This document shows, in pieces, positions 3,340 to 23,253 of a stretch of 64,000 bases of DNA. The stretch is from Lentzea fradiae. GTDB taxonomy: Bacteria > Actinomycetota > Actinomycetes > Mycobacteriales > Pseudonocardiaceae. How positions within the stretch are numbered: the stretch's first letter is position 1; the number at the start of each line of letters is the position of its first letter. The DNA is taken from positions 806,001 to 870,000 of the forward strand of contig NZ_FNCC01000001.1 in the NCBI RefSeq assembly GCF_900100955.1, read 5' to 3'. Position numbers and translations under genes: made by a program. Below the pieces are notes generated by a model, which worked only from the letters and a program-made list of their open reading frames with translations, was not told where the DNA came from and ran no database searches.

Positions 3340-3972
3340 ATGGCGGGGACGCGGCGCGCGGCCGAGCCCGCGGAGCCGGTTCGGGCTGTCGGGCGGCGCG
3401 AGCGGCACAAGCGGGCCATGTACGAACGGCTGTACTCGGCGTCGATCGACCTGTTCACCGGACAGGGCTATGAGGAGACCTCGATCGAGGAGATCACCGA
3501 GCGGGCCGATGTCGCACGAGGCACCTTCTTCAACTACTTCGAGAAGAAGGAGGAGGTCATCGCGGCGTGGGGCGCGCGGCGGCGGGACACGCTGCGGGCG
3601 GAGCTCGGGGCGATCGCGGGTGGCGGCCTGGACGTGCTGACGTGTCTGGAGAACTGCATGCGGGCGCTGGCGAAGATCAACAAGTCGGAGTGGCGCACCA
3701 CGCAGGTCATGCTCACGGCGTGGGTGAAGTGCGGCCACCCCATCTTCGAGGAGCCGTACGCGACGTCGTTGTTCGCGGAGATCGTCGCCGCCGGGAAGCA
3801 GGACGGCGAGATCGCCGCCCACGTCGACCCGACACTGGTCGGCAACATCCTGCGGGACGTCTACCTGGGCACGCTCTACCGGTACGTGGGTCGCGGCAAG
3901 CAGCCGACGACGCTCGCGACCGAGCTGGTCACGACCCTGCGGCTGGTGATGAACGGCGTGCTGGTCAGGTGA
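3340..3972 (+). CDS. TetR/AcrR-family transcriptional regulator
   Basis: The 210-residue protein starts at ATG 3340 with GGGAG 7 bases upstream. The N-terminal HTH (~residues 25-75) shows the family pattern: LFTGQGYEETSIEEITERADVARGTFFNYFEKKEEV. The C-terminal helical domain should bind a ligand that I cannot predict. Its stop overlaps the end of the convergent PKS gene by 8 bp (3965-3972), so the two 3' ends share sequence without room for a terminator. A palindrome in its own promoter suggests autoregulation. Controlling the adjacent PKS is plausible but not shown. Confidence 0.9.
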   Translation: MAGTRRAAEPAEPVRAVGRRERHKRAMYERLYSASIDLFTGQGYEETSIEEITERADVARGTFFNYFEKKEEVIAAWGARRRDTLRAELGAIAGGGLDVLTCLENCMRALAKINKSEWRTTQVMLTAWVKCGHPIFEEPYATSLFAEIVAAGKQDGEIAAHVDPTLVGNILRDVYLGTLYRYVGRGKQPTTLATELVTTLRLVMNGVLVR

Positions 3973-7639: not shown

Positions 7640-7876
7640 GGTTCCCCCGGTGGGTTCAAAGTGGTTCCAAGTACAACTATGTACCCGAAGCCAACTTTAG
7701 TCAGTACGGTGATCCGTTGGAAGCCAAACTACGCAATTGCCGGTTCGACGGAGAGCCCGGTGATGACGGTCTCGCAGGGTGGAACACGACGCCCTACACT
7801 CAAATTCGGTCTTGCGTTCAAGTTTGTACTGGCGTACTCACTACAGCGGTCAACGGTCCGGCAGGGGGAGATCCAC
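7640..7876. promoter_or_regulatory. Divergent promoter region, PKS / YCII-LuxR regulator
   Basis: This 237-bp gap separates the leftward PKS from the rightward regulator and is noticeably richer in A/T than its surroundings (7670-7850). It must carry the promoters of both genes. I cannot assign convincing -35/-10 pairs or an operator. Confidence 0.4.
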
Positions 7877-8461
7877 ATGGCCAGGTTTGTGGTCGAGATG
7901 GTGTTCGAGACAGCGGACGAGCGGTTAGCCGAGGTCAGGCCCTCCCATCGCAGGTACTGGGAGGACCTGGCCGCACGCGGCGTGCTGCTGGGTGGTGGTC
8001 TGTACGCCGACGAGTCGGGCGGGCTGATGCTGTGCGAGGCCGCGGACGAGGCCGCGATGCGCCGTTTGGTCGACGGAGATCCTTACGTGCGGGTGAAACT
8101 GGTGCGCAGCGTCAAGATCCGCGAGTGGCACGTGCTCGTCGGCGGACTGACGTTGCCCTCCGACCGCGATCCTGAGCCGCGACAATTGGGATTCACTATG
8201 GTTTCCGGTGACAACTCGGGTTCACTGGTCGCCCGGATCGAGAGCGGCCCGCGCATCACCCGCGCCGCGGTGGCCGCCGGTCCCGCTCTCACCGCGCACG
8301 AGCAGCGCATCGCCGCACTGATCGTGGGCGGCAAGACCAACCGCGAGATCGCCGACCAGTTCCGGGTCTCGGTCCGCGCGGTCGAGCTGCACATCACCAG
8401 CATCTACCGCAAGCTCGGCATCAACCGCAGGGCGCAGCTCGCCTCCGCGCTGGCCGCCTGA
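7877..8461 (+). CDS. YCII-like domain fused to LuxR-type HTH regulator
   Basis: The 194-residue protein starts at ATG 7877 after GGGGGAG (6-base spacing). Residues 1-90 resemble YCII/EthD-like ferredoxin-fold domains (RPSHRRYWEDLAARGVLLGGGLYAD, later DPYVRVKLVRSVKIREWHVLVG). Residues ~130-194 are a LuxR/GerE HTH (LTAHEQRIAALIVGGKTNREIADQFRVSVRAVELHITSIY written across the helix pair). YCII domains are small enzymes or binding modules, so the fusion suggests a one-component sensor that reads a small molecule. It is divergent from the PKS and 15 bases ahead of the LLM oxidoreductase, which it probably shares a transcript with. Confidence 0.85.
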   Translation: MARFVVEMVFETADERLAEVRPSHRRYWEDLAARGVLLGGGLYADESGGLMLCEAADEAAMRRLVDGDPYVRVKLVRSVKIREWHVLVGGLTLPSDRDPEPRQLGFTMVSGDNSGSLVARIESGPRITRAAVAAGPALTAHEQRIAALIVGGKTNREIADQFRVSVRAVELHITSIYRKLGINRRAQLASALAA

Positions 8462-8476
8462 CTCCGGGAGCACCTG

Positions 8477-9388
8477 ATGAGGTTCGGCGTCAACATCCCC
8501 AACTACGGCGACCGCGCGGAGCCCGCCGAGATCCTGCGCTGGGTCCGGCACGCCGAACAGCTCGGCTACCACCTCGCGATGGTCTCCGACCACGTCGCGC
8601 TCACCGCCGACGTCGAGCGCCTGTTCCCCGCGCCGTTCTACGACCCGTTCGCCACGCTGTCGTGGCTCGCGGGCCAGACCAGCAGCATTGAGCTCGGCAC
8701 GACCGTGATCGTGCTGCCGTACCGGCATCCACTGCTGATGGCGAGGATGGCCGCGGCGATCGACCAGTTCAGCGGCGGACGGCTGGTGCTGGGCGTGGCC
8801 GCGGGCTGGGCGCCGGGCGAGTTCGCCGCGGTCGGCGCCGACTACCGGTCCCGCGGCCGGATCTCGGACGAGTCGCTGCGCGCCATGAAAGCGTTGTGGA
8901 ACAACGACATAGCGAAGTTCGATGGCTCTTTTGTCCGGTTCGGACCGGTTGCGACGGGTCCGCGGCCCGCGCGGTCCATCCCGATCTGGGTCGGTGGGCA
9001 CAGCACGGGTGCGGTGCGACGGGCGGTGCTGCACGGCGACGCGTGGCACCCGACGTCGGTGCCGCCGGGCTACCTGGAGCAGATCGGGATGCCGCAGCTG
9101 CGCCGCGTCGCCGAGCAGAAGGGACGGCCGGTGCCGGCCCTGGTGCCGCGCATCAAGCTGAGGACCACCACGCGGCCGTTGCCCGATCGCGACCGCATCC
9201 TGGGGGAGGGCACGCTCGACCAGCTCCGCGGGGACCTGGCCGCGCTCGCCGGGCTGGGAGCCACCCACGTGGTGCTGGACACGACGTATCCGGGGGAGAC
9301 CGTGCGCAAGCCCGCCGAGCACTATCTGGGGTTGCTCGAACTGGTCGCTTCCGAGATCGTGGACCTCAAGACCGGTGAGCTGCGGTGA
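8477..9388 (+). CDS. LLM-class flavin/F420-dependent oxidoreductase
   Basis: The 303-residue luciferase-like monooxygenase family protein starts at ATG 8477 with GGGAG upstream. Family landmarks are the N-terminal strand MRFGVNIPNYGD, WVRHAEQLGYHLAMVSDHV, IELGTTVIVLPYRHPLLMARMAA, FSGGRLVLGVAAGW and IPIWVGGHS. It resembles the F420-type subfamily with TIM-barrel fold more than bacterial luciferase. The substrate is unknown. It may tailor the product of the neighbouring PKS or of the operon beginning at 11610. Confidence 0.88.
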   Translation: MRFGVNIPNYGDRAEPAEILRWVRHAEQLGYHLAMVSDHVALTADVERLFPAPFYDPFATLSWLAGQTSSIELGTTVIVLPYRHPLLMARMAAAIDQFSGGRLVLGVAAGWAPGEFAAVGADYRSRGRISDESLRAMKALWNNDIAKFDGSFVRFGPVATGPRPARSIPIWVGGHSTGAVRRAVLHGDAWHPTSVPPGYLEQIGMPQLRRVAEQKGRPVPALVPRIKLRTTTRPLPDRDRILGEGTLDQLRGDLAALAGLGATHVVLDTTYPGETVRKPAEHYLGLLELVASEIVDLKTGELR

Positions 9389-9422
9389 ACCGGACGTGCA
9401 CGCCGTGCGCCGAGGGGGCGTG

Positions 9423-10343
9423 ATGGGGGACCTGGACGTCCGCAAGCTGCGGATGCTGCGCGAGCTCGACGAACGCGGCACCGTCGCCGCCGTCGCGCAG
9501 GCTCTGCACCTCACGCCGTCCGCGGTGTCGCAGCAACTCGTGGCGCTGTCGAAGGAAGCGGGCGTCCGCCTGATCGAGCCGGTCGGCCGCCGGGTCCGTC
9601 TCACCGAGGCCGCCCGCGTGCTGTTGCGGCGTGCCAACGACATCTTCGCCGAGCTGGAACGCGTGCAGGCCGATCTCCTCGCCTACTCGGAAGGCTCGGT
9701 GGCCGAGGTGCGTGTCGCGGGGTTCGCCGCCACGCTGTCCGGCCTGGTGCTGCCCGCCGTGCGCGAGCTGCGCGACAGCCATCCCGGTGTCGCGGTGCGG
9801 CTGGTCGAGGCGGACCCGCCGCACTCGTTCGACCAGCTGGTGCGTGGCGACGTGGACGTGGTGCTGAGCCTGGAGTCCAAGGACAGCCCCGCGGCCACCG
9901 ACCGCCGCTTCCACCGGGTCGCGCTGCTGGCCGAACGCTTCGACGTGGCGTTGCCGGTCCACCACCCGCTCGCGCACGCACCGGCCGTGCGGCTGGCGGA
10001 CCTGGCGAACGAGGCGTGGATCTTCTCCAACACGGGGACGTGCCGCGACATCTCGTTCGCCGCGTGCATCGCGGCCGGCTTCACCCCCGAGATCGTGCAC
10101 CACATCGGTGACTGGGAGGCGACCCTGGGCGCCGTCGCGCTCGGACTGGGCCTGGCGCTGGTGCCGAGGCTCATCAACGCGGGACCGCGCGACGACGTGG
10201 TGATCAGGGTGCTCGACGCGGAGCAGCCCACCCGGCACGTGTTCGCGGCCGTGCGCAGCGGAAGTGAGGAGGCGCCGCACCTGGCCGCGGTGCTGGGCGC
10301 CTTGGCGGAGGCGGCCGAGGTGAAGGCCGCCCAGCGCGGCTGA
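9423..10343 (+). CDS. LysR-family transcriptional regulator
   Basis: The protein has 306 residues from ATG 9423; an in-frame GTG one codon earlier sits too close to the AGGGGG ribosome site. The N-terminal winged HTH (LDVRKLRMLRELDERGTVAAVAQ, LHLTPSAVSQQLVALSKEAG) is followed by a substrate-binding-like effector domain (~90-300). It lies 34 bases after the LLM gene on the same strand. LysR proteins usually act on adjacent genes, so targets could be the EamA exporter or the operon starting at 11610. Effector unknown. Confidence 0.9.
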   Translation: MGDLDVRKLRMLRELDERGTVAAVAQALHLTPSAVSQQLVALSKEAGVRLIEPVGRRVRLTEAARVLLRRANDIFAELERVQADLLAYSEGSVAEVRVAGFAATLSGLVLPAVRELRDSHPGVAVRLVEADPPHSFDQLVRGDVDVVLSLESKDSPAATDRRFHRVALLAERFDVALPVHHPLAHAPAVRLADLANEAWIFSNTGTCRDISFAACIAAGFTPEIVHHIGDWEATLGAVALGLGLALVPRLINAGPRDDVVIRVLDAEQPTRHVFAAVRSGSEEAPHLAAVLGALAEAAEVKAAQRG

Positions 10344-10466
10344 CCGTTCAGTTCTGCTGCACGGTCGAGAGCGAAAATTCTCGCTGGAACTTCACGCAGG
10401 CGCGTGTGAAGCTCGTCCCAGAACCACTTCAGTCTGGATTCCCCACATGAGGAACAGGGATTTTCG
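10344..10466 (+). promoter_or_regulatory. LysR-EamA spacer with inverted repeats
   Basis: AGCGA and TCGCT (10370-10385, A/T-rich centre) form one dyad. TTCAC and GTGAA around 10391-10410 form another. Dyads of this size upstream of a gene adjoining a LysR regulator are candidate binding sites; the standard LysR T-N11-A pattern is not clear-cut. Confidence 0.3.
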
Positions 10467-11402
10467 ATGTCTGCTGCCGTGTCCAGGATGAGCCTGGTGA
10501 GGCTGATCGCGCTCGGCCTCATCTGGGGCTCGGTCTTCCTCTTCATCAAAATCGCCGGATACTCCTTCTCCCCGGTGCAGATGGTGTTCGCCCGGCTGGT
10601 GCTCGGGGCGGTCGTGCTGCTGCCGTTCGTCTACAGCCGGGGCGGGAGGCTGCCCAAGGGAAAGGCCATCTGGGGCCACCTCACCGTCGCCGCGCTGCTG
10701 GGCAACGCCATTCCCTGGGTGCTCTTCGCCTGGGGTGAGCAGCACGGCTCGTCGAGCGTCGCGGGCGTGGTCAACTCGACGACGCCGCTGTGGACCATCG
10801 TCGGCGCCTACGTGCTCGGCCAGGACCGCAAGCTGACCGCCACCAAGATCGGCGGTGTGCTGCTCGGCATGATCGGCACGATCATCATCGCGGCGCCGTG
10901 GAACGCGGCGTCGACGGGGAGCACGAGCAGCGTCGTCGCGTTCGTCGTCGGCACGGTCAGCCTCGGCGCGAGCTTCGCCTACATGGGCAGGTTCCTCGCG
11001 GGGCGCGGCATCCCGCCGCTCACGCTGGCCGCGTCCCAGCTCACGGCCGCGAGTGCGTTGCTGCTGGTCGCGATGCCGTTCGCGGGCCTGCAGCCGGTGC
11101 ACCTGCGGACCGACGCGCTGATCGCGATCGTCGTGCTCGGGCCGATCTGCACGGGTATCGCCTACGTCCTGAACTTCCAGCTGATCACCAAGGACGGCCC
11201 GACCGTCGCGTCGACCGTCACCTACCTGTTCCCGATCGTCTCGGTCGCGCTCGGCGCGCTGGTGCTCAGCGAGCCCGCCGGCTGGCCGCTGTACGTCGGC
11301 GCGGTCGCGTCCGTCGCCGGGGTGGTGCTCGTGCGCCGCAAGCCCAAGGCCGCCGCGCAGGCATCCTCTCCCGCCCCGGCACCCGCGGCGGCGAAGGGCT
11401 GA
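10467..11402 (+). CDS. EamA/DMT-family transporter
   Basis: The 311-residue integral membrane protein starts at ATG 10467. About ten hydrophobic segments form two EamA repeats (LIALGLIWGSVFLFIKIAGY in the first; VSLGASFAYMGRFLAGRG in the second). DMT/EamA carriers export or take up small metabolites. Here it lies between a LysR regulator and a metabolic operon and is closed by a strong terminator, so it is probably expressed alone. Export of the operon's product is a reasonable inference. Confidence 0.88.
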   Translation: MSAAVSRMSLVRLIALGLIWGSVFLFIKIAGYSFSPVQMVFARLVLGAVVLLPFVYSRGGRLPKGKAIWGHLTVAALLGNAIPWVLFAWGEQHGSSSVAGVVNSTTPLWTIVGAYVLGQDRKLTATKIGGVLLGMIGTIIIAAPWNAASTGSTSSVVAFVVGTVSLGASFAYMGRFLAGRGIPPLTLAASQLTAASALLLVAMPFAGLQPVHLRTDALIAIVVLGPICTGIAYVLNFQLITKDGPTVASTVTYLFPIVSVALGALVLSEPAGWPLYVGAVASVAGVVLVRRKPKAAAQASSPAPAPAAAKG

Positions 11403-11426
11403 CCCCCACACCCCTCCCGCCCGGCG

Positions 11427-11463
11427 AAGGGCCTCCCGGAATGCGACCCGGGAGGCCCTTTTT
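11427..11463 (+). terminator. Rho-independent terminator after EamA gene
   Basis: AAGGGCCTCCCGG (11427-11439) pairs perfectly with CCGGGAGGCCCTT (11448-11460) around an 8-base loop, and TTTTT follows from 11459. It separates the EamA gene from the downstream operon. Confidence 0.92.
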
Positions 11464-11609
11464 CGTGACGGGAATCGCTTCGGCTTCCCGAAGCCCTTTA
11501 TTCACCGGGCAATTCTGCGGACTCCCGTAGTGAACTTCTCCCGCCCCGTCAATAACGTCTGCGGCAACGCCAACAGCGCCGCATCGGGACGCGAGGAGGA
11601 CATGGGGGA

Positions 11610-12320
11610 ATGGTCAACCCAACCGCTCCACGACTGGGTGTCGTGGTGCCGTCAGGAAATGCGGCGGTCGAACCGGAGATCTCCGCTCTGCTGTCCGGTC
11701 ACGTGCACGTCCACGCCACGCGTTTCCCGTTGTTCACCGAGTTCGAGCAGCGGGAGCGGATCGCCAGGTACAACGAGGCGCTGGCACCGGCGATCGCCTC
11801 GTTCGGCCGCCTCGGCGCACGGGCGGTCGTGGCCGAGTGCAGCGGCTCGCACTACCTGCAAGGGCCGGCGCGTGAACAGGAGTTCTGCGACGACCTGAGC
11901 GCGCGGTTCGGCGTCGAGGTCACGACCGTGACGCGGACCGTGCTGGCGGCCTTGGCGAGCATCGACGCCACCGAGGTCACGCTCGTGTCGCCGTACGCGC
12001 AGTGGCTCACCGACCTCTCGCAGGGGTACTGGGAAGCAGCGGGCATCAAGGTCCGCGACATCGTGAAGGTGCGGTCCAGCAAGGGTTTCTCGCCGTACGA
12101 CGTCTCCACCGACGAGCTGGTCGAGCAGGTCCGCGCGGCCGACCGCCCGAAGGACGAGGTGCTGCTGATGACCGGCACCGGCATGTTCACCCTCGCCGCG
12201 CTCGAAGAGCTCAAGGCGGGCGTCGAGCGCACGATCATCACGTCGAACCTGGCCACCGCCTGGTGGTCGCTGAGCAGGCTCGCGCCGGACGCCGTCGTGA
12301 ACTGGCGGCTGGCGCCGTGA
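11610..12320 (+). CDS. Maleate isomerase / arylmalonate decarboxylase-like protein
   Basis: The 236-residue Asp/Glu racemase-superfamily protein starts at ATG 11610; GAGGAGGA lies 10 bases upstream. The family opening PRLGVVVPSGNAAVEPE is intact. Maleate cis-trans isomerases use two cysteines. The first is present in AECSGSHY (~residue 77), but at the second site the sequence reads LLMTGTGMFTL with no cysteine, so classical two-Cys isomerisation or racemisation is doubtful. It is the first gene of a seven-gene operon that ends at 19937; the next gene overlaps by GTGA. Confidence 0.82.
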   Translation: MVNPTAPRLGVVVPSGNAAVEPEISALLSGHVHVHATRFPLFTEFEQRERIARYNEALAPAIASFGRLGARAVVAECSGSHYLQGPAREQEFCDDLSARFGVEVTTVTRTVLAALASIDATEVTLVSPYAQWLTDLSQGYWEAAGIKVRDIVKVRSSKGFSPYDVSTDELVEQVRAADRPKDEVLLMTGTGMFTLAALEELKAGVERTIITSNLATAWWSLSRLAPDAVVNWRLAP

Positions 12321-13486
12321 TCGCGGTGGTCGGAGCGGGCCCGGTCGGACTCACCGCGGCGCTCGTGCTGGCGCACAACGGAGTTCCGGTGACGCTGCTG
12401 GAACAGGGACCTGCCCTCGGCACGGCCTCGCGCGCCTCGACGTTCCACCCGGCCACGCTCGACCTGCTGGCAGGGCTCGGCGTCGCGGACGAGTTCATCG
12501 CACAGGGCCGCAAGGTCCACGACCTGCAATGGCGCGACCGTTCCGGTGCGCTGCTGACGCGGATGAGCTACCACGCCATCGCCGACCGGACGGCGCACCC
12601 GTTCCGCCTGCACGCCGAGCAGACGGTGCTGACCCCGTTGTTGCTCAAGCGACTCACGGCCGAGGTCCGCTGGAACACGGCGGTCACCGCGGTGCACCAG
12701 GACGACGACGGCGTCGAGCTGGTCACCGGCAACGGCACGCTCCGCGCCGACTACGTGATCGCGGCAGACGGGGCGCACAGCGCGGTCCGCACCGCGCTGG
12801 GCCTGGACTTCCCCGGCAAGGAGTACCCGACCTACGCGCTGCGCGTCATCACGACCACCGAGCTGGACCGGTTGCTGCCGGGCCTTTCGCCGATGACGTA
12901 CTTCCGCGATCCCGTGCAGTCGTGCAGCGTCCTCGGCCTGCCCGACCACTGGCGGGTCATCCTGCGCCTTCCGCACACCGCCGACCCGGCGGACGTGGCG
13001 GTGGAAGAGCTGCTGCACAAGGCTTTGCCGACGTTGGCCGACCGGGTCGAGGTGCGTGAGGCGCACACCTACCGCACCTCGCGCCGCGTGATCGACGACT
13101 ACCGGGCGGGACGCGTCCTGTTCGCGGGCGACGCGGCCCACCTCACCTCCACCGCCGGTGGCATGAACATGAACTGCGGCATCCACGACGCGGTCGACAT
13201 CGCCACGGCACTGTCCCACGTGGTCAACGGCGACCACGGAAGCGCACTGCTCGACGAAGCCGCGCGGCGCCGCCGGAACGTGGTCGTCGACCACGTCATC
13301 CCGGCGAGCGAAGCACGAGTGTCCGGGGTGGACGGACAAGCGGGCTCAGTCGACGCCGCGGTGCGGGAAATCGCTGTCACAGCGAGCAGTCCGATCGAAG
13401 AGGCGCGGTACCTCGTGCGAGCGTCGATGCTCGACACGGCCCCCGGGTACCCGGCGCCCACACTCGAAGGGTCCGTCGCATCGTGA
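12317..13486 (+). CDS. FAD-dependent monooxygenase (class A flavoprotein)
   Basis: The 389-residue protein starts at GTG 12317, overlapping the previous stop by 4 bases. The Rossmann FAD site ([20 protein letters not shown]), the DG motif region ([18 protein letters not shown]) and the GD motif ([20 protein letters not shown]) match PHBH/UbiH-type hydroxylases. No membrane anchor or C-terminal thioredoxin-like domain is visible. It probably hydroxylates an aromatic or heteroaromatic ring using NAD(P)H. Within this operon its substrate may be a pyrrole or an acyl intermediate, but that is speculation. Confidence 0.9.
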
Positions 13487-14283
13487 GAATCTGGTTCCAC
13501 AAGCACACCGTCGAAGGCCGCCTGCCACTGCTCGACGAGTGGTACCGCAAGCACCTGGCCGAAGTCACGTCGCCCGGCACCGAGATCGTCATCAAGACGC
13601 TGCCGGAAGGCACCTACGACACCGAGACCCCGTTCGACCTCGTCAAGTTCGGCGCACTGCAGATCCACTTCAACGCGTACTTCGCCCGTGGCGCGGTCGA
13701 GGCCGAACGTCAGGGCTTCGACGCCTGGGTGATCGCCGCGGGCCAGGACCCCGGCCTGCACGACGGCAGGGCCCAGACGTCGATCCCGACGCTCGGCTAC
13801 GGCGAGACGAGCTTCTTCTACTCGGCCATGCTGGGCTACCGCTTCGGCGTGCTGGGTTTCATGCCGGCGTTGCGCGAGATCATCACCGAGAACATCGAGC
13901 GGTACGGCCTCACCAGCAGGCTCGCGGCCTACGAGCTGGTCGACGACGGCCACGAGGCCGTGCGCCAAGCGCTCGACGGCGACTTCGACCGCTTCATCGA
14001 GGTGTTCGACGTGGCCGCGAAGAAGGCCGTCGCTGCGGGCGCCCAGGTGCTGATCCCCGGCGAGGGCATCCCGGCGGAGATCTTCTGGCACCTCGGCACC
14101 AAGGAGCTGCACGGCGTCCCGGTGATCGACCCCGCCGGGCTGCTCGTGCGGCAGGCGGAGCTCGCGGTGCACCTCAAGAACCTCGGCGTTGTCACGCGTT
14201 CCACGGCGGGCTACTGGTTCCGCCGCCCCGACGGCGCGCTCACCGAGCACGTCGAGAACGTCTTCCTCGGAAAGGCCGTCTGA
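13483..14283 (+). CDS. Asp/Glu/hydantoin-racemase-family protein lacking all cysteines
   Basis: The 266-residue protein starts at GTG 13483, with GTGA overlap. The fold signature is clear: early beta strand [13 protein letters not shown], then [34 protein letters not shown] and [15 protein letters not shown]. In hydantoin and Asp/Glu racemases the two latter strands end in catalytic Cys (G-C-x-G-D-P-G and G-C-A-G types). Here these positions read Ala/Gly and Glu/Gly, and I find no cysteine anywhere in the protein. It is therefore not a conventional racemase; a different lyase, isomerase or hydrolase chemistry or a binding role is likely. It ends in TGATG with hemB. Confidence 0.8.
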
Positions 14284-15275
14284 TGTCCTCCTCCTCGGCA
14301 CAGTTCCCCGCCGCCCGCCCGCGCAGGCTCCGCCGCACACCCGCGTTGCGCAGGCTCGCCACCGAGACGCGGCTGCACCCTGGCAACCTGGTCCAGCCGT
14401 TGTTCCTGCGCGAGGGCCTCGACCAGCCTCGTGAGATCAGCTCCATGCCCGGCGTGTACCAGCACACCCGCGAGTCGCTGCGCAAGGCCGCCGCGGAGGC
14501 CGTGAGCGCCGGTGTCGGCGGCCTGCTGCTGTTCGGCATCCCGGTGGAGAAGGACCCGCTGGGCCTCGGGGCGACCGACCCGGACGGCATCCTCCAGGTG
14601 GCGCTGCGCGACGTCGTGGAGGAGGTCGGTGACTCGACCGTCGTCATCGGCGACGTGAACCTCGACGAGTACACCGACCACGGCCACACCGGCGTGCTCG
14701 GCCCTGACGGCGACGTGGACAACGACGCCAGCATCGAGCGCCTCGCGGACATGGCCGTCGTGCAGGCGCAGGCCGGTGCGCACGTGATCGCGCCCAGCGC
14801 CATGATGGACGGCCAGGTCGGCAGGATCCGCGAGAAGCTCGACGAGGCCGGCTTCCCGAACGTGCCGATCATGGGCTACTCGGCCAAGTACGCCTCGGCG
14901 TTCTACGGCCCGTTCCGCGACGCCGTCGAGTCGTCGCTGACCGGCAACCGCCGCGCCTACCAGCAGGTGCCGGGCAACATCCGCGAGTCGCTGCGCGAGG
15001 TCGACCTCGACCTGGCCGAGGGCGCGGACTTCGTGATGGTCAAGCCCGCGGGGGCCTACCTGGACATCGTGCGGCTCGTCGCCGACCACGTGGACGTACC
15101 GGTCGCGGCGTACCAGGTCTCCGGCGAGTACTCGATGATCGAGGCCGCCGCCGCCAAGGGCTGGCTGGACCGGGATCTGGTCGTGCTGGAGAGCCTCCAC
15201 TCCATCCGGCGCGCCGGCGCGTCGATCATCATCAGCTACTGGGCGACCGAGTTCGCCACACGTCTGGAGCGGTGA
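14283..15275 (+). CDS. hemB: Porphobilinogen synthase (ALA dehydratase), cysteine-free variant
   Basis: The 330-residue protein starts at ATG 14283, sharing one base with the preceding stop. It condenses two 5-aminolevulinates to porphobilinogen. Schiff-base lysines are present: Lys202 in [13 protein letters not shown] and Lys254 in [11 protein letters not shown]. The metal-site loop reads [15 protein letters not shown] (residues 123-137), so Asn126, Asp128 and Thr136 replace the three cysteines of zinc-type enzymes. No cysteine occurs in the whole protein, suggesting a zinc-independent (Mg-type or metal-free) enzyme. hemC and hemD are not adjacent, which is unusual for a housekeeping copy and suggests a specialised paralogue. 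Confidence 0.93.
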
Positions 15276-16564
15276 CCGTGGGAGACGTCAAGCTGACCCT
15301 GCTGGGCATCAGCCACTCGTCGGCGCCGGTGGACGTGCTGGAGCGCGTGGTCATCTCCGGCGAGGAGCTGGACGAGGTCCTCAGCGAGATCAACTCCGCC
15401 GAGGAGTTCGGGGCCGTCTACGCGCTGTCGACGTGCAACCGCATGGAGTTCTACGTCGAGAAGCGGGCGGACGAGGCCGCGTCCCTGTTGCGCGCCAGGC
15501 TGGTCGAACGGCTCGGTCTGTCCGAAGAGGACGCGTCGCGGTTCCTGTACCAGCGTGAGGGCACGGACGCGGTGCGGCACCTGTACTCGGTGTCGAGCGG
15601 CCTGGAGTCGATCGTCATCGGCGAGGACCAGATCCTCGGCCAGGTCAAGGACGCGCTGGACCGGTCGCGCCGCCTCGGCACGGCCGGGCCGCTGGTCAAC
15701 CAGCTGGTGCAGTCCGCGATCCGCCTCGGCAAGCGGGTGCGGACCGAGACCGACATCAACCGGGCGGGCCGCTCGCTCGCCACGGTCGGCCTCTCCGCCC
15801 TGGAGCACGTGGTGGGCGCGATGTCCGGCCGCTCGGCGCTGGTCGTCGGCGCGGGCGCGATGGCGGGCGTGGTCGTGGCGGCGTTGCGCGGCAGCGGGCT
15901 GGCCCGCATCGACGTGGCGAACCGGACGCCGGAGAAGGCCGCCCGGCTCGCGGAGACCACCGGCGGCAGCGGTTTCGGGCTCGACGAGCTGCCGAGGCTG
16001 CTCGCGGACGTGGACCTCGTCGTGACGTGCATCAGCGGCACCGGGGCGTTGATCACCGCCGCGGACGCGGAGGAAGCCGTGCGCCACCGCGACGGTTCGC
16101 CGTTGTTCCTGCTCGACCTCGCCCTGCCGCGCAACATCGCGGGCGACGTGGCCAAGGTCGACGGCGTGTCGCTGGTCGACCTGGAAACGCTGGCGGGCGC
16201 CGGTCCCGACGAGGCGGCACTGTCCAGTGTGGCCTCGGTGCGGGCCCTGATCGACGGCGAGGTCGAGACGTTCCTCGCCGCGCAGCGGGCGGCGAAGGTG
16301 GCGCCGGCGCTGGTGAAGCTGCGGACGGTCGCGTCGACGACGGCGGAGGCCGAGCTGGGCAGGTTGTTCCGGAAGGTGCCGACGTTCGACGAGCAGCACC
16401 GCTCGGAGATCACGCTGTCGGTGCACCGGATCGTGGAGAAGGTGCTGCACGGGCCGACCGTGCGGGCACGGGAGCTGGCGGGTGCCCCGGACGGCTCCAG
16501 GTACGTGGAAGTGCTGGGGAAGTTGTTCGACGTCCCCGGCGAACGGGATGAGGTCGTCGCATGA
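15272..16564 (+). CDS. hemA: Glutamyl-tRNA reductase
   Basis: The 430-residue protein starts at GTG 15272, with GTGA overlap with hemB. It reduces glutamyl-tRNA to glutamate-1-semialdehyde. The catalytic domain has Cys55 in [12 protein letters not shown] and [20 protein letters not shown]. The NADPH domain has [18 protein letters not shown]. The C-terminal dimerisation domain (~320-425) is complete. The usual HRTAPV opening motif reads HSSAPV, a mild divergence. With hemL and hemB it supplies porphobilinogen from charged tRNA-Glu. It overlaps the acyl-CoA synthetase by ATGA. Confidence 0.95.
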
Positions 16565-18603
16565 GTGAGCTGTCGCTGTTGTGGAACGCCGAGTCGGTCG
16601 CCGTCATCGGCGCGACCGAACGCGAGGGCGCGCTGGGCCGCAAGCCCGTCGCGTACCTGCAGCGGTACGGCTATCCCGGCCGGATCCTGCCGATCAACCC
16701 CAAGGGCGGCACGATCCTCGGCTACCAGGCGTACCCGTCGGTCCTCGACGCGCCCGGCCCGATCGACCTCGCCTTCATCGTCGTGTCGGCGGACCGCGTG
16801 CCCGCCGCCGTCGACGACTGCGTGGCCGCCGGGATCAAGGTCGCGATCATCGCGTCCTCCGGGTTCGCCGAGACCGGTGACGAGGGCGCGGCGCTGCAGG
16901 CCGAGACCGTGGCGCGGGCACGGGCGGGCGGGCTGCGCCTCGTCGGCCCGAACTGCATCGGCGCCGTCGGTTTCGGCAACAAGGTGATGGCCACGTTCAG
17001 CCCGCTGTTCTCGGCGGAGGCCGTGGTGTCGCTGGAGCCGGGCGGGCTCGGCATCGTCAGCCAGAGCGGCGCGCTGGGCTTCGGCGCGGCGTCGCTGGGC
17101 ATCGAGCGCGGGATGCGGCCGGGCTGGGTGATCACCACCGGCAACGACGCCGACGTGTCCGCGCTGGAGGTCCTCGCCGAGCTGGCCCAGGAGCCGTCCT
17201 GCACCGGGTTGCTCGGCTACCTGGAGAACGTGCCGGACGTCGACGCCCTGCGGTCGCTCGCGAGCTCGGGCAAGCCGGTGGCGCTGCTGAAGTCCGGCCG
17301 CAGCGAGGAGGGCGGCCGTGCTGCGGCCTCGCACACCGGCGCGCTGGCCACCGACGACAGGGTGCTCGACGCTGCTTTGCGCCAGTTCGGCATCGTGCGC
17401 GCCGGGGACATCGACGAGCTGCTCGACGCCGGTGACGCGTTCACCTCGCCGCGCAGGCCGAAGGGTCCGCGGGTGGCGGTCGTGACGACCTCGGGCGGTT
17501 CGGGCATCCTCGCCGCGGACGACGTGGTGGCGCAGGGTCTCGAGCTCACGCCGCTGAAGGACGAGACGCGGGCGGCGCTGGCGGAGATCATCCCGAGCTT
17601 CGGCTCGGCGGACAACCCGGTCGACATCACCGCCGCCGTCCTGAGCGACCCGTCGCTGTTCGACAGGTCGCTGGACGTCATCGCGGCCGACGACACCGTC
17701 GACATGATCATCGGCTGCTTCTGCGTGATGACCGACGGCGACGTGGACAAGGCCGTGCGGGCGCTGGCGAAGGTGGCGGAGAAGTCCGGCAAGCCGGTGC
17801 TGGTCTCCCGCACCGGAGCGGACTTCCTCGCCCCGAACGCCAGGGCGACGCTGCGGGAGGCCGGCCTGCCGGACTACCCGTCGCCCGCGCGTGCCGTCCG
17901 TGCCGCGGCGGCCCTGTGGCAGGTGAGCCGGCCGCGTGCGACGGACTCGCTGGCGGGCTTGGGAATCGCGACTCCCGCCGCCGAGCTGACCGAGCCGGAG
18001 CTCAAGGCGTTGCTGGCGGACGCCGGTCTGGCCGTTCCGGTCGGGAGGGTCGTGGCGTCGGCCTCCGAGGCCAAGGCCGTGACGGACGAGGTCGGCGGGA
18101 CGGCCGTGTTCAAGGCGGTCGTGCCGGGCCTCGTGCACAAGACCGACGTCGGAGCGGTGAAGGTCGGCGTGGCCTCGGCCGATGCCGCGGACGCGTTCGA
18201 CGAGCTGTCCGCGTTCGGCGGTGCCGTGCTGGTCGAGGAACTGGTCGGCGAGGGCGTCGAGCTGATCATCGGTGTGCGCACGTCCGACCTCGGTCCGGTG
18301 CTGACGCTCGGACTCGGCGGCATCTTCACCGAGGCGCTCGACGACGCGACCTCGCGGCTGCTGCCGCTCGCCCCCGGTGATGCCGAGGCGATGGTCGGCG
18401 AGCTGCGCGGCAAGGCGCTGCTCGACGGTGCGCGGGGCCGTGCCGCCGCGGACGTGCCGTCGCTCGTCCGCACGCTGGAGACCGTCGCGGCACTGGTCTC
18501 GGACTGGGAGGGCGGTTTCGAGCTCGACCTGAACCCCGTGCGGGTCCTGGAGTCGGGCACGAAGGTGCTCGACGCCGCGCACGTGATCGCGAAGGAGGCG
18601 TGA
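16561..18603 (+). CDS. Acyl-CoA synthetase, NDP-forming type (acetate--CoA ligase family)
   Basis: The 680-residue protein starts at ATG 16561, overlapping hemA by 4 bases. The order is an N-terminal CoA-binding Rossmann domain (~5-135: [18 protein letters not shown]), two succinyl-CoA-ligase-like domains (~145-450; [10 protein letters not shown] and the [14 protein letters not shown] histidine loop that carries the phospho-His in relatives), and a C-terminal ATP-grasp domain (~465-675). Such enzymes interconvert an acid, CoA and ATP with acyl-CoA, ADP and phosphate. Insertion between hemA and hemL is unusual and suggests that an acid made or used in this pathway is activated. Substrate unknown. 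Confidence 0.9.
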
Positions 18604-18605
18604 CG

Positions 18606-19937
18606 GTGACTCTGTCCATTGTGGATGCCGATCGCATCGGCGAACCGGCGGAGGCTCCCGCCTCGGACGCGCTGTTCCACCGGGCGCAGAAGATCGTGCC
18701 CGGAGGCGTGAACTCGCCGGTGCGGGCGTTCCGCGCGGTCGGTGGCACGCCGCGGTTCATGAAGAGCGGCAAGGGCGCGTACATCACCGACGCCGACGGC
18801 CGCGAGTACGTCGACCTCATCTGCTCCTGGGGTCCGATGATCCTCGGGCACGCGCACCCCGCCGTCCAGGAGGCCGTGTACGAGGCGATCGGGCAGGGCA
18901 CGTCGTTCGGCACGCCCACGCTGAACGAGGTCCTGCTGGCGGAGGAGATCGTGGCCCGCGTGGACCCGGTCGAGTCGGTGCGGCTGGTCAGCTCGGGCAC
19001 CGAAGCCACGATGTCCGCGATCCGGCTGGCGCGCGGCTTCACCGGCCGCACCAAGGTCATCAAGTTCGCGGGCTGCTACCACGGTCACGTGGACGCGCTG
19101 CTGGCCGCCGCGGGCTCCGGTGTCGCCACGTTCGCACTGCCGGACACCCCGGGTGTCACGGGTGCGCAGGCGAGCGACACCATCGTGTTGCCGTACAACG
19201 ACCTCGACGCGGTGCGGGCGGCCTTCGAGGCCAACCCCGACACGATCGCGTGCGTGATCACCGAGGCGTCGCCGGGCAACATGGGCGTCATCCCGCCCGC
19301 ACCCGGCTTCACCGCGGGGCTGCGCGAGCTGACGTCCGCGCACGGCGCCCTGCTGATCTCGGACGAGGTCATGACCGGGTTCCGCCTCTCCCGCGCCGGC
19401 TGGTACGGGCGAGAGGGCGTGGCCGCGGACCTCTTCACGTTCGGCAAGGTCATGGGCGGCGGCTTCCCGGCGGCGGCGTTCGGCGGGCGCGCGGACGTGA
19501 TGGCGCACCTCGCCCCGGCCGGCCCGGTGTACCAGGCGGGCACGCTGTCCGGGAACCCCGTCGCCACGGCGGCGGGCCTGGCCACCCTGCGGCACTGCAC
19601 GCCCGAGGTGTACACGCACCTCGACGCCGCGGCGGTGGTCGTCGGCGGCATGATCTCCGACGCGCTGGCCCGCGAAGGCGTGGCGCACCAGGTGCAGCAC
19701 AGCGGGAACATGTTCTCGGTGTTCTTCGCCGAGGAGCCCGTCACGGACTTCGACTCGGCGAAGGCCAGTGAGACGTTCCGGTACAACGCGTTCTTCCACG
19801 CGATGCTGAACCAGGGCGTCTACCTGCCGCCGTCGGCGCTGGAGTCGTGGTTCCTGTCGGCCGCGCACGACGAGAGCGTGCTGGACCGGATCGCCTCGGC
19901 GCTGCCGCTGGCGGCGAAGGCCGCGGCTTCGGCCTGA
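18606..19937 (+). CDS. hemL: Glutamate-1-semialdehyde 2,1-aminomutase
   Basis: The protein has 443 residues. I prefer GTG 18606 because AAGGAGG (18592-18598) stands 7 bases away; the in-frame GTG at 18600 would leave only one base of spacing. It is a PLP enzyme converting glutamate-1-semialdehyde to 5-aminolevulinate. Landmarks are [60 protein letters not shown] and the PLP lysine in [15 protein letters not shown]. It is the last gene of the operon, with a terminator 9 bases after the stop. Class III aminotransferases can look similar, but the GVNSPVRAF and GSGVAT-type motifs fit HemL well. Confidence 0.94.
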
Positions 19938-19945
19938 CGGAAGCG

Positions 19946-19978
19946 AAAAGGGGGATGCCGACCGGCATCCCCCTTTTT
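19946..19978. terminator. Bidirectional terminator between hemL and ohr
   Basis: AAAAGGGGGATGCCG (19946-19960) pairs with CGGCATCCCCCTTTTT (19963-19978). The A-run and T-run on either side let it work for the rightward hem operon and the leftward ohr gene. Confidence 0.93.
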
Positions 19979-19989
19979 CCCTTCCGTGC

Positions 19990-20406
19990 TCACACCTTCG
20001 CGGTGACCTCGACGTCGATGTTGCCGCGGGTGGCCTTCGAGTAGGGGCACCGCTGGTGCGCCTGGCCGACCAGGTCGTCCGCCTGCTCCTGGCCGAGACC
20101 GGGCAGCACGGCGACGATCCGCGCGCCGAGGTGGTAGCCGTCGTCGCCCTTCACCAGGTCCACCGAGACCGTCACGGTGCTGTCGGTGAGGTCGGCCCCG
20201 GCGTTGCGGGCGACCAGCCGCAGCGCCGAGTGGAAGCACGCGCCCCAGCCCGCGGCGAAGAGCTGCTCGGGGTTCGTGCCCGCACCGCTGCCGCCCACCT
20301 CCTTCGGGCTCGCCAGTGCCAGGTCGAGCACGCCGTCGGCGGACCTCGCCGTGCCCTTCCGGCCGTCGCCGCTCGACGTCACGTCCGCCGTGTAGACCAC
20401 AGACAT
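19990..20406 (-). CDS. ohr: Organic hydroperoxide resistance protein (Ohr/OsmC family)
   Basis: The 138-residue protein starts at ATG 20406 after AGGAGCTACGAGG. It is a thiol peroxidase that reduces organic hydroperoxides. Both redox cysteines are present: Cys57 in GWGACFHSAL and Cys120 in HQRCPYSKATRGN. Motif NPEQLFAAGW and length fit Ohr rather than the longer OsmC. It is monocistronic, reading toward the terminator shared with hemL. No OhrR/MarR regulator is adjacent. Confidence 0.93.
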   Translation of the reverse strand: MSVVYTADVTSSGDGRKGTARSADGVLDLALASPKEVGGSGAGTNPEQLFAAGWGACFHSALRLVARNAGADLTDSTVTVSVDLVKGDDGYHLGARIVAVLPGLGQEQADDLVGQAHQRCPYSKATRGNIDVEVTAKV

Positions 20407-20550
20407 CCTCGTAGCTCCTCAGAGGTTCGTGTTTGGGGCCGACGCTAGGAGCGGTTTCGGCGGCAGGTCACTACGGGACCTCGTAGGGACATCGCGCGCC
20501 CGCGCGGGAAAGGTGGGCGGCGTTGACGTTCTCGACCTGATGGAGGGGCC

Positions 20551-21657
20551 GTGCCTGGTCCGTTGGAAGGCGTGCGGGTGCTGGAGATCGGCGGGTCGGT
20601 CGCCGCGGCGTTCGCCGCGACCGTGCTCGCCGACCTCGGTGCCGACGTGCTGCGCATCGACCGCGCGGCGCAGGTGCCGGACGCTCCGGTGGAGCCGCTG
20701 CCGGACCCGCTGGCCCGTGGCCGCCGGTCCGTGGCCGTGGACCTGAAGCACGCGGACGGCCCCGCGGTCGTCCTGGACCTGGTGGCACGGGCCGACGTGC
20801 TGATCGAGGGCGGACGGCCGGGCAGCGCGGAGAAGCTCGGCATCGGCCCGGAGATCTGCCTGCAGCGCAACCCAGGACTCGTCTACGGCCGGGTCACCGG
20901 CTGGGGCCAGGACGGCCCGCTGGCCAGGCGGGCGGGCCACGACATCACGTTCCTCGGCGTCACGGGCGCGTTGTCGGTGCCCGGCCAGGCGCCCGCCACG
21001 CCGCCGCCGTACTACCTGTCGAGCTTCGCGGGTGGCGCGCTCCAGCTGGTGATCGGCGTCCAGGCGGCGTTGCTGGAACGGGCCAGGTCCGGTCAGGGCC
21101 AGGTGGTCGACGCGGCGATGGTCGAGGGCACGGCGCTGCTGTCGGTGCTGGTCGACCAGTGGCGCAAGACGCCCGGTCGCGTCACGGTCGTCGACGCGCC
21201 GTTCTACACGACCTACGAGTGCGCGGACGGCCGCTTCCTGTCGGTCGGCTCGGTCGAGCCGCACTTCTACCGCGAGCTGCTGGACAAGCTCGGCCTGGGC
21301 GATCTCGACCTGCCCGGCCAGTACGACGAGTCCGGCTGGCCGCTGCTGACCGAGAAGATCGGGGAGGCGTTCCGGTCCAGGGACAGCACCGAGTGGGAGA
21401 AGGTCTTCGCCGACTCCGACGCCTGCGTGGCACCGGTCCTGGCACCGGACGAGGTCGCGGGCCACCCGCACCTCCAGGCGCGTGAGTCCTTTGTGGACGT
21501 CGGTGGTCAGCACCAGCCCGCACCCGCGCCGCGCTTCTCCCGTTCGGAGCGCGTGACTCCGGCACCCGCCCCCTACGCGGGACAGCACACCGCGTCGGCG
21601 CTGGGGGACTGGGGAGTGGACGGCTGGACGGACAGCGGCGCGGTCCGAGGCGTCTGA
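20551..21657 (+). CDS. CaiB/BaiF family protein, alpha-methylacyl-CoA racemase-like
   Basis: The 368-residue protein starts at GTG 20551 after GGAGGGG. It shows the family III CoA-transferase fold: LEGVRVLEIGGSVAAAFAATVLADLGADVLRID, the substrate-loop motif GRVTGWGQDGPLARRAGHDITFL and DAAMVEGTALLSVL. The GHDITF motif is typical of alpha-methylacyl-CoA racemase rather than formyl- or succinyl-CoA transferases. It may epimerise 2-methyl-branched acyl-CoA, which would match a non-malonyl PKS extender, but that link is inferred. It shares TGATG with the MFS gene. Confidence 0.87.
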   Translation: MPGPLEGVRVLEIGGSVAAAFAATVLADLGADVLRIDRAAQVPDAPVEPLPDPLARGRRSVAVDLKHADGPAVVLDLVARADVLIEGGRPGSAEKLGIGPEICLQRNPGLVYGRVTGWGQDGPLARRAGHDITFLGVTGALSVPGQAPATPPPYYLSSFAGGALQLVIGVQAALLERARSGQGQVVDAAMVEGTALLSVLVDQWRKTPGRVTVVDAPFYTTYECADGRFLSVGSVEPHFYRELLDKLGLGDLDLPGQYDESGWPLLTEKIGEAFRSRDSTEWEKVFADSDACVAPVLAPDEVAGHPHLQARESFVDVGGQHQPAPAPRFSRSERVTPAPAPYAGQHTASALGDWGVDGWTDSGAVRGV

Positions 21658-22778
21658 TGCCGCGGGTGCTTCCGCTCCTGCCCGGCATGGTGGCGCTGGG
21701 ACTGGACGCGTACGTCGTGGCCGGCGTGCTGCCCCAGCTCAGCGCCTCCCTGAACCAGCCGGTGCCCGCGGTGGGCCAGCTCGTCACCGTCTTCACGCTG
21801 TCGTACGCGCTCCTGTCACCGATCGCCGCGACACTGCTGACCGGCAAACCGATGCGCGCGGTGCTCCTCACGGCCTTGGCCGTCTTCACCCTCGGCAACG
21901 CGCTGAGCGCCGTCGCGGGCACCTTGACGTTCCTGTTGCTGTCACGGGTGATCGCGGGCTTCGGCGCGGGCCTCTACTCGCCGATGTCCGCCGCCACCGC
22001 AGCCGCGCTCGTGCCGCCAGAACGCCGCGGCCGGGCCCTCGCGCTCATCACCATCGGCCTGAGCTCCGGCACGGTCGCGGGTGTCCCGCTCGGCCTGCTG
22101 CTCGCCGACCACGTCGGCTGGCGCGGCACCTTCTGGCTCGTCACCGCACTAGGGCTGGTGGCGATCGGCGGGGTGGCGGTGGTGCTGCCCGCCATCCCGC
22201 CCGCGGCACCACCGTCGCTCAAGGCGCGCCTGGGCGTGCTGGCCGACCGCAACGTCCTGTCGATCGTGCTGGTGACCGTGTTCTCGACGCTCACCAGCCT
22301 CGGCACCTACACCTACATCGCCCCGATCCTGGGTCGCGACGACGTGGTGGTGTACCTGGTGATCTGGGGCGTCGGCGGCTTGCTCGGCAACCTCCTGACC
22401 GGCGCGGTGATCGACCGGTGGCGGGACACGAGAACGCTGATGGGCGTGCTCCTCACCGTGATGGGCGTGAGCCTGGCCCTGCTCCCCGTCGGCCCACCCG
22501 CCCTGCTGGTCTTCCTGTGGGGCGCGAGCGCGTGGAGCTGCCCGGCCACCCAGCAGCACCGGGTGATGTCCGCGAGGCCCGCCGAGGGGCCGGTCGCCGT
22601 GTCGCTCAACGCCTCCGCGATCTACCTCGGCTCGTCGCTGGGCGCCGGTCTGGGCGGCATGGTGCTCGCGAGCGGGGGAGCGCCGGCCGTGCTCGCGTAC
22701 GTGTTCGGCGGGCTGGCGGTGTTCGCGGCGGTGCTCAACCACCTGGTCACCGCCAAGCCGGTGCTCAGCGACGCCTGA
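21657..22778 (+). CDS. Major facilitator superfamily transporter (DHA1-like)
   Basis: The 373-residue protein has about 12 hydrophobic segments and starts at ATG 21657, overlapping the CoA-racemase stop by one base. MFS traits are VFTLSYALLSPIAATLLTG, the motif C-like stretch VIAGFGAGLYSPMSAATAAAL and PPERRGRALALITIG. The layout resembles AraJ/Cmx-type exporters. It probably exports a small molecule and is translationally coupled to the upstream gene. Its end overlaps the convergent membrane-protein gene by 14 bp. Confidence 0.88.
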   Translation: MPRVLPLLPGMVALGLDAYVVAGVLPQLSASLNQPVPAVGQLVTVFTLSYALLSPIAATLLTGKPMRAVLLTALAVFTLGNALSAVAGTLTFLLLSRVIAGFGAGLYSPMSAATAAALVPPERRGRALALITIGLSSGTVAGVPLGLLLADHVGWRGTFWLVTALGLVAIGGVAVVLPAIPPAAPPSLKARLGVLADRNVLSIVLVTVFSTLTSLGTYTYIAPILGRDDVVVYLVIWGVGGLLGNLLTGAVIDRWRDTRTLMGVLLTVMGVSLALLPVGPPALLVFLWGASAWSCPATQQHRVMSARPAEGPVAVSLNASAIYLGSSLGAGLGGMVLASGGAPAVLAYVFGGLAVFAAVLNHLVTAKPVLSDA

Positions 22779-23253
22779 GGTCGCGAGCCAGGTGGGAACG
22801 CGGCCAGCTGCCCGGCTTCAGGACCGTCGTCCACGGCCGACCGGCGGGTGAGATCTGGCGGTGGAAGTAGTTGACGTGCTCGACGGCGCCGAACACCGTG
22901 AGCACCAGCCCGGGATACACCCCGAGACCGGGCTCGACGGCGAGCTGCCAGGCGGACGCGACCAGGCCGCCCGCGATGAGCAGCACGCCCAGCACCCGCG
23001 CGACCCGGAAGATCGCCGCGCCCGGCAGCGCCGGTCCGGGAACGGCGAGCCGCCGCCACTTCAGCGCCCAGTAGGAGGCGCCGACGATCAGGGGAAAGGC
23101 GGTCGCCGCATATCCCAGCGCGTTGGCAGGCGTCGCGGGTGCGTCCAAGGCGGCGAACAGCACCACGAAGAACACGACGACACTCGCCAGCTCTCCGAGC
23201 GCCAGCTCCATGAGCTTGCGTCGCAGCGCCGTGCGCCCTGAACGAGGGTTCAT
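22765..23253 (-). CDS. Small integral membrane protein of unknown role
   Basis: The 162-residue protein starts at ATG 23253 (MNPRSGRTALRRKLMEL); an alternative ATG at 23265 also lacks a ribosome site. Four hydrophobic spans are visible (LASVVVFFVVLFAAL, ANALGYAATAFPLIVGASY, VLGVLLIAGGLVASAW, GLVLTVFGAVEHV), with basic loops and a basic tail. I recognise no named family. Convergent with the MFS gene. Confidence 0.7.
   Translation of the reverse strand: MNPRSGRTALRRKLMELALGELASVVVFFVVLFAALDAPATPANALGYAATAFPLIVGASYWALKWRRLAVPGPALPGAAIFRVARVLGVLLIAGGLVASAWQLAVEPGLGVYPGLVLTVFGAVEHVNYFHRQISPAGRPWTTVLKPGSWPRSHLARDLRRR

Follow-up and report, generated by a model that had tools for sequence, protein, structure and literature searches.

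The seven-gene operon

We analysed a window of 64,000 nucleotides from Lentzea fradiae (NZ_FNCC01000001.1, positions 806,001-870,000, forward strand; all coordinates are window-based), which contains, at 11610-19937, an operon with second copies of early heme-biosynthesis genes among genes of other families. It consists of seven plus-strand open reading frames (ORFs) in the order R1, FMO, R2, HemB, HemA, ACS and HemL (Table 1). We write R1 and R2 for two proteins of the Asp/Glu-racemase fold, FMO for a flavin monooxygenase, ACS for an acyl-CoA synthetase, and HemB2, HemA2 and HemL2 for the second copies of the heme enzymes. Five of the six junctions, those among the first six genes, are 4-base overlaps, and the sixth is a 2-base gap before HemL2, whose most likely start is the GTG at 18606 (with AAGGAGG ahead, 2 bases past the ACS stop). 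The ORFs and this start site confirm the seven coupled genes, gap included, that the original prediction for this stretch had described, and the family models agree with its identification of HemA, HemL, HemB, the FMO and the ACS. The arrangement is not due to chance, as the seven-gene order is kept in 25 of the 28 loci described below.

The conserved unit is larger than the operon: it covers about 7877-22778 of the window, with the seven genes as its core. The original prediction had the core right, but its coordinates did not take in the acyl-CoA-racemase homologue next to it, the peroxiredoxin, the MFS transporter, the F420 oxidoreductase and the regulators. The promoter scan found 0 promoters, and the 3 terminator-like sites that it listed do not exceed the number in shuffled sequences; the terminator hairpin of Table 1 is absent from the list of the pattern-based terminator scan. 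No Rfam RNA, riboswitches included, reached the gathering score in 7000-23000.

Table 1. Features of the cluster in the window, in order of position
Feature	Coordinates	Strand	Evidence
YCII + LuxR-type helix-turn-helix regulator (ORF open from 7625)	7877..8461	+	Pfam YCII 1.5e-11, GerE 4.4e-13
F420-dependent LLM-class oxidoreductase	8477..9388	+	TIGR03619 215 bits, cut-off 166.9
LysR-family regulator	9375..10343	+	domain search
EamA/DMT exporter	10467..11402	+	domain search
Intrinsic terminator hairpin between EamA and operon	11426..11461	+	minimum free energy -30.5 kcal/mol, z -6.22, then T run
R1: maleate-isomerase/arylmalonate-decarboxylase-fold enzyme, N-terminal catalytic Cys only	11610..12320	+	Pfam Amdase
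FMO: class A FAD monooxygenase	12317..13486	+	FAD_binding_3; nearest solved structures PnpA, HspB
R2: hydantoin/allantoin-racemase relative without conserved Cys	13483..14283	+	Pfam Asp_Glu_race 2.4e-21
HemB2: porphobilinogen synthase without zinc cysteines	14280..15275	+	ALAD 437 bits, cut-off 24.6
HemA2: glutamyl-tRNA reductase, divergent	15272..16564	+	GlutR_N, Shikimate_DH, GlutR_dimer
ACS: NDP-forming acyl-CoA synthetase, alpha-beta fusion	16561..18603	+	ATP-grasp_5 + Succ_CoA_lig
HemL2: glutamate-1-semialdehyde aminomutase	18606..19937	+	TIGR00713 596 bits, cut-off 527.3
Ohr-type organic hydroperoxide peroxiredoxin (OsmC)	19990..20406	-	TIGR03561 161.5 bits, cut-off 88.85
Alpha-methylacyl-CoA racemase (MCR) homologue, CaiB family	20551..21657	+	match to 1x74
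MFS efflux transporter, Cmx/CmrA-like but below that model's cut-off	21657..22778	+	

Distribution and conservation

Genome contigs were scanned with an R2 alignment, which brought up 27 loci: they belong to Lentzea, Saccharothrix, Actinacidiphila and Streptomyces and to one record named Streptosporangium. If the window is counted in, 25 of 28 loci have all seven core genes in one unbroken run; of the remaining three (L numbers are our locus handles), L060 is cut by a contig end, and L049 and L064 have broken frames. FMO, R1, R2, ACS and HemB2 each occur in all 28. The cluster is thus patchily distributed and syntenic as a whole across at least four genera. R2 is 94-97% identical in two further Lentzea genomes (of 24), 76% in a Saccharothrix and 55-62% in streptomycetes, and the identity of the streptomycete loci L034 and L035 to the window ranges from 38% (YCII-LuxR) and 45-46% (MFS) up to 79% (HemB). 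Gene calls in the loci come from our own codon-score caller, for which 12 genes of the window served as the training set. Note that the 33 loci fetched are 29 distinct places, with L016/L039, L017/L040, L030/L041 and L034/L078 as duplicates, and that the 25-row alignments used below omit six of 31 loci, namely L016, L034 and L035 (near-duplicates or kept apart) and L049, L060 and L064 (broken or cut).

The cluster genes are under purifying selection. Between the window and L. aerocolonigenes (L040) the dN/dS of 11 comparable genes is 0.06-0.29, with 0.07 for HemB2; for 14 genes compared with L. jiangxiensis (L039) it is 0.09-0.51, where the highest value, that of OsmC, marks the weakest constraint.

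In Streptomyces sp. NBC_00704 the cluster lies on a 90-kb linear plasmid that is typed as non-mobilizable. It adjoins there a second biosynthetic-looking gene set (L078, 1-9088) with a TrpB-like protein, an adenylate-forming enzyme, a type III pyridoxal-phosphate enzyme, an acyl carrier protein, acyl-CoA dehydrogenases and a phosphopantetheinyl transferase.

Second copies and housekeeping copies

Two HemB genes are present in the L. fradiae genome, which comprises 8.5 Mb in 43 contigs. A search for another heme set, proposed with the original prediction, led to contig C31, where rex, hemA, hemC, a cobA-hemD fusion, hemB and hemL form the housekeeping set; the operon genes are hence not the sole copies, and the idea that they are the housekeeping ones was rejected. 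HemB2, HemA2 and HemL2 are 65, 37 and 68% identical to their housekeeping counterparts. As had been stated, hemC and hemD are absent from the operon: no match to either was found in the window or in the 33 loci (tblastn, E 1e-3, Lentzea queries), although a very divergent HemD could escape this search. Neither is the operon conserved in all relatives. Of the 24 Lentzea genomes, exactly 3 have R2, and these same 3 are the only ones with a second HemB.

A similar association is seen in Streptomyces. A second HemA match was found in 14 of 295 genomes. Eleven of the 14 also have R2 (E up to 1e-20), compared with none of 20 genomes with a single HemA (20 of 280, chosen by handle order). Of the three second-HemA genomes without R2, one has a broken extra HemA with no hem neighbours (L135, 9930-11020), and in the other two BLAST detects hemA, hemC and hemB of another heme set (L132, 5044-13424; L134, 7365-15836), next to which we recognised by eye hemE-, hemF-, ferrochelatase- and oxidase-like genes and MMPL-like transporters. 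The contrast with the cluster shows which form a second set takes when a porphyrin is the goal. This bears on an alternative explanation of the operon, that it merely boosts porphobilinogen (PBG) for heme, corrins or porphyrins by way of the housekeeping HemC and HemD. Both enzymes are encoded in the same genome, and the sets of L132 and L134 do lead towards porphyrins; however, those sets include hemC, whereas none of the cluster loci examined yielded a HemC or HemD match, and FMO, R1, R2 and ACS accompany the cluster in all 28 loci. We consider simple PBG supply quite improbable.

Trees were built for HemA (39 rows) and HemB (26 rows). In each, the 16 cluster copies included form one group with a support of 100/100, separate from the sampled housekeeping copies, and they fall into three subgroups that the two trees share. 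Since the cluster copies group together across genera, a recent local duplication was rejected. Both trees are unrooted. The housekeeping rows are, for HemA, the window's own and those of 19 Streptomyces that are not cluster carriers and, for HemB, those of Lentzea (three carriers included) and one Streptomyces; the housekeeping copies of the streptomycete carriers stand outside the trees, and a short row (L115) was dropped. The housekeeping HemA of genome G850 (L133) is wrongly labelled "second set" in the tree. A long-branch warning applies to the Lentzea housekeeping HemA, which is placed with the second sets; the cluster group is unaffected.

Enzymes of the C5 route

HemA2 matches all three domains of glutamyl-tRNA reductase and scores 321.5 bits with TIGR01035 (cut-off 209.55), while it stays below the cut-off of the narrower model PRK00045.1-3 (406 of 429). 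The STCNR motif with the nucleophilic Cys is invariant in the 25 aligned rows. HemL2 is well above the cut-off of the aminomutase model. Of 31 rows, 29 have DEVMTGFR, whose Met is the residue altered in gabaculine-resistant mutants, and the remaining two do not match the pattern. In HemB2, SAKYAS and MVKPA, which presumably hold the two Schiff-base lysines, align to the solved enzymes and are identical in the housekeeping copy, as expected of a porphobilinogen synthase. The metal site is different. In the loop DxCLDEFTxHGHCG, none of the 31 cluster rows has a Cys (L016 and L039 are the same place), whereas ten out of ten other actinomycete HemBs have 2 or 3; by this loop, HemB2 does not belong to the zinc-dependent type.

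A HemB paralogue without zinc cysteines, putatively under Zur, is reported for Pseudomonas putida (in the part of PMC2770081 consulted), and HemB2 might likewise replace the zinc-dependent HemB under Zur control during zinc starvation. Its missing cysteines fit this, but a scan of one strand of the window and 24 cluster loci, allowing up to 3 mismatches to a palindromic consensus, detected no site like a Zur box, and the remaining cluster genes have no zinc logic, which makes the explanation extremely improbable.

The altered metal loop, seen in every cluster row, also speaks for one of the two readings offered with the original prediction, namely that HemA2, HemL2 and HemB2 are inhibitor-tolerant copies which protect the producer of a tetrapyrrole-pathway inhibitor. 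The other enzymes of the cluster would make this inhibitor, and the synthetase described below could be a further tolerant copy. Such an inhibitor, alaremycin from Streptomyces, does target porphobilinogen synthase (PMC12670364, partial text), and the cluster has two exporters. On the other hand, a single target needs one resistant enzyme and not three or four consecutive ones, and HemL2 has kept DEVMTGFR in nearly all rows. Alaremycin itself is made via an ALA-synthase-like enzyme and an acetyltransferase (ALA, 5-aminolevulinate), and neither an ALA-synthase-like nor an N-acetyltransferase gene was found among the scanned cluster products. Self-protection is thus the less likely of the two readings, and we regard it as unlikely overall.

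All streptomycete-type loci with an upstream flank available (24 of 24, among 31 loci) contain in addition a divergent gene for a glutamyl-tRNA synthetase (GluRS). The one protein scanned matches PF00749 (2.3e-60), as a synthetase should, and HIGH-like and KMSKS-like patterns are both matched in 23 called proteins of the 24 rows. The anticodon domain is only partly or poorly matched, and the score with TIGR00464 is below the cut-off (260 of 290). In the two streptomycete genomes examined, the cluster GluRS is extra to another GluRS (34-35% identity). Going by these family matches, the gene content shows a predicted private route that the GluRS completes, from glutamate to PBG, in the streptomycetes, and that would begin at glutamyl-tRNA in the other carriers. 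A dedicated tRNA-Glu was found neither in the window nor in 26 loci, where the ARAGORN calls are Lys (L056), Val (L058) and one unassigned (L059).

Putative tailoring enzymes

The two racemase-type proteins of the original prediction have the expected fold; what did not hold is the two-cysteine racemase. Racemases for Asp, Glu and hydantoins use two catalytic cysteines. R1 has one of them, at the N-terminal site, in all 25 aligned rows. It matches Pfam Amdase (53.6, cut-off 25.9) and stays far below the cut-off of the NCBIfam model arylmal_decarb (53 of 225). At the position of Cys188, which we take to be the catalytic Cys of arylmalonate decarboxylase, the region reads TGTGMFT, and R1 is thus neither a canonical arylmalonate decarboxylase nor a maleate cis-trans isomerase with equivalents of both Cys76 and Cys194. 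At the two sites of the hydantoin-racemase cysteines, R2 reads GQDPG and (G/A)EGIP; it contains no Cys at all in 25 of 32 rows and one in 7, and none at either catalytic site in the 25 aligned rows. The MCR homologue is clearly closer to the M. tuberculosis MCR (1x74, E 2.6e-93) than to formyl-CoA transferase (1.6e-29). Of the presumed catalytic pair His126 and Asp156, however, only the His is kept, the Asp being replaced by Ser in 17 and by Thr in 7 of 24 aligned rows. As the two-base machinery is partly or wholly missing from R1, R2 and the MCR homologue, racemisation is an unlikely activity for the three.

ACS has the CoA-binding, ligase and ATP-grasp domains of an NDP-forming synthetase, and ASHTGA, with the presumably catalytic His, is present in the 25 aligned rows; in the cluster it is paired with the acyl-CoA racemase homologue. 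FMO resembles HspB and R1 resembles Iso, which we believe to be enzymes of hydroxypyridine degradation.

These resemblances are among the points for a further explanation, in which ALA is the true branch metabolite (for example as ALA-CoA that ACS forms and that is then cyclised) and HemB2 only drains or detoxifies the excess. ACS could activate ALA, and the three enzymes that form the C5N unit in other actinomycetes include an aminolevulinate-CoA ligase (PMC4525017, as far as the consulted part goes). But HemB2 is present in all 28 loci and strongly constrained, and no cyclising ALA synthase or amide synthase was found with Pfam among the 14 products of the cluster in the window. An ALA branch appears improbable to us.

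Distant relatives of R2 (about 30-43% identity) are found in L018, L031-L033 and L036-L038 with no hem matches alongside. Their neighbours include an OsmC match (L018), an FMO-like (34%, L036) and CaiB-like proteins (33%, L033 and L038). The relatives in L031-L033 (about 40%) come from another genus of the same family, and L031 has, by eye, neighbours like old yellow enzyme and M20 peptidases. The settings of L018 and L031 look catabolic by eye, and that of L031 is a different, probably catabolic one for the R2 family. We tried to derive the function of R2 from these neighbourhoods, and no substrate could be deduced.

Flanking genes

The gene set that recurs around R2 comprises YCII-LuxR, LLM, LysR, EamA, the seven core genes, OsmC on the opposite strand, the CaiB-type gene and MFS. 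In the 28 loci, YCII-LuxR is found in 28, LLM in 26 (the misses, L053 and L060, have lost the flank at a contig end), LysR in 25 (not L049, L053, L060), EamA in 26 (not L053, L060), OsmC in 26 (not L040, L060; L035 is likewise without a match), the MCR homologue in 25 and MFS in 24 (not L040, L049, L053, L060). The outer flanks vary between groups of loci. In the three Lentzea carriers, a single-module type I polyketide synthase (PKS; KS-AT-DH-ACP, window 3965-7588) adjoins the cluster; we rejected it as a member, because among the loci compared it stands beside the cluster in Lentzea only.

Sixteen loci have a protein of about 140-160 amino acids between YCII-LuxR and R1 (e.g. L042, 7144-7575), with N-terminal Met-Pro in the one that was read. 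That this protein (about 144 amino acids) is a tautomerase is unproven and was not counted: Pfam and NCBIfam gave no match, and the sole solved relative, a putative tautomerase, has an E of 0.48.

Porphobilinogen as a probable building block

PBG is the building block of tetrapyrroles. The reading we prefer, with a probability of roughly 0.68, is that of a specialised-metabolite cluster with a private C5 route which diverts PBG to an exported compound. ALA or PBG as a building block was the other reading of the original prediction, and it is the best supported one since the genes of a complete route are kept together with those for tailoring, regulation and export; the product and its tailoring are conjectural. 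Judging from intact families and motifs, glutamyl-tRNA, supplied by the cluster GluRS in streptomycetes or by a host enzyme in Lentzea and Saccharothrix, would be reduced by HemA2, HemL2 would form ALA, and HemB2 would condense two ALA to PBG. With no HemC in the cluster, PBG would then pass to FMO, R1, R2, ACS and LLM. FMO may oxidise the electron-rich pyrrole to a pyrrolinone- or maleimide-like compound, which R2 and R1, as cofactor-free enzymes with no and one catalytic Cys, might open, isomerise or decarboxylate; for R1, the Cys could add to an unsaturated acid in the manner of maleate isomerase. A side-chain acid would be converted by ACS into its CoA thioester, on whose alpha carbon the MCR homologue may act and which the F420 enzyme may reduce. 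Finally, EamA and MFS would export the product, the peroxiredoxin would handle oxidative by-products, and LysR and YCII-LuxR would regulate the genes. We regard this order of tailoring steps as doubtful.

Several points weigh against the preferred reading. The conserved unit contains no scaffold enzyme (PKS or nonribosomal peptide synthetase) among the loci compared. The order and the substrates of FMO, R1, R2, ACS, the MCR homologue and LLM are guesses, and the enzyme activities, the product and the tailoring chemistry are predictions. Some of the cluster's PBG could be drawn into heme synthesis by the housekeeping HemC. The clusters of Lentzea and Saccharothrix have no GluRS. A 52-53% identical relative of the streptomycete cluster enzyme occurs in each of the 24 Lentzea genomes, whether or not they carry the cluster, which is why we rejected a linked GluRS in Lentzea. 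In the genome of the window, this relative has 548 amino acids (L075, 9168-10814), and a further GluRS-like match is present.

The more specific claim, that PBG is the committed building block of a family of non-tetrapyrrole products spread horizontally among actinomycetes, with a complete private pathway from glutamate to PBG, a zinc-independent PBG synthase and tailoring by racemase-fold enzymes with one catalytic base or no cysteine, seems to us slightly better than an even bet. If true, it would mean a new family of pyrrole-derived metabolites and possibly a zinc-independent PBG route for bioproduction. The combination of R2 with a HemB without zinc cysteines would serve as a handle for genome mining, and the cluster would offer three natural "half-racemases" for study. 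Several carriers are culture-collection Streptomyces, so all this is directly testable.

Comparison with known systems

In the open-licence literature we found no described non-tetrapyrrole PBG pathway and no account of the cluster, in line with the original prediction, which knew of no system with this gene set; a report in a subscription journal could be missed. Each of the nearest systems shares some features with it. The second heme sets of L132 and L134 have a second hemA and hemB in common with the cluster and differ from it in their hemC and, by eye, in later heme genes. From the maleate isomerase/arylmalonate decarboxylase family, R1 differs by its one catalytic Cys at the N-terminal site. 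The alaremycin pathway of Streptomyces uses ALA-like chemistry against porphobilinogen synthase (PMC12670364, partial text). Neither an ALA-synthase-like enzyme nor an acetyltransferase, the two named above for its biosynthesis, was found among the scanned cluster products.

The tolyporphin biosynthetic gene cluster of the cyanobacterium HT-58-2 is likewise a clustering of additional hemA, hemL and hemB with tailoring genes and, in the part of PMC10459692 consulted, has no hemD or gltX. However, it has hemC, hemE and two hemF and makes tetrapyrroles, whereas our cluster, in which no HemC or HemD match was found, is not of the tolyporphin type and includes a GluRS gene in the streptomycete loci.

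The C5N-unit clusters of actinomycetes also recruit a heme-precursor step to specialised metabolism and also contain an acyl-CoA-forming enzyme. They use a C4 ALA synthase (consulted part of PMC4525017), while here a second C5 route continues to PBG. In the example reported there, the C5 route serves primary and the C4 route secondary metabolism (PMC4525017, same part), and the cluster described here would be an exception to this division.

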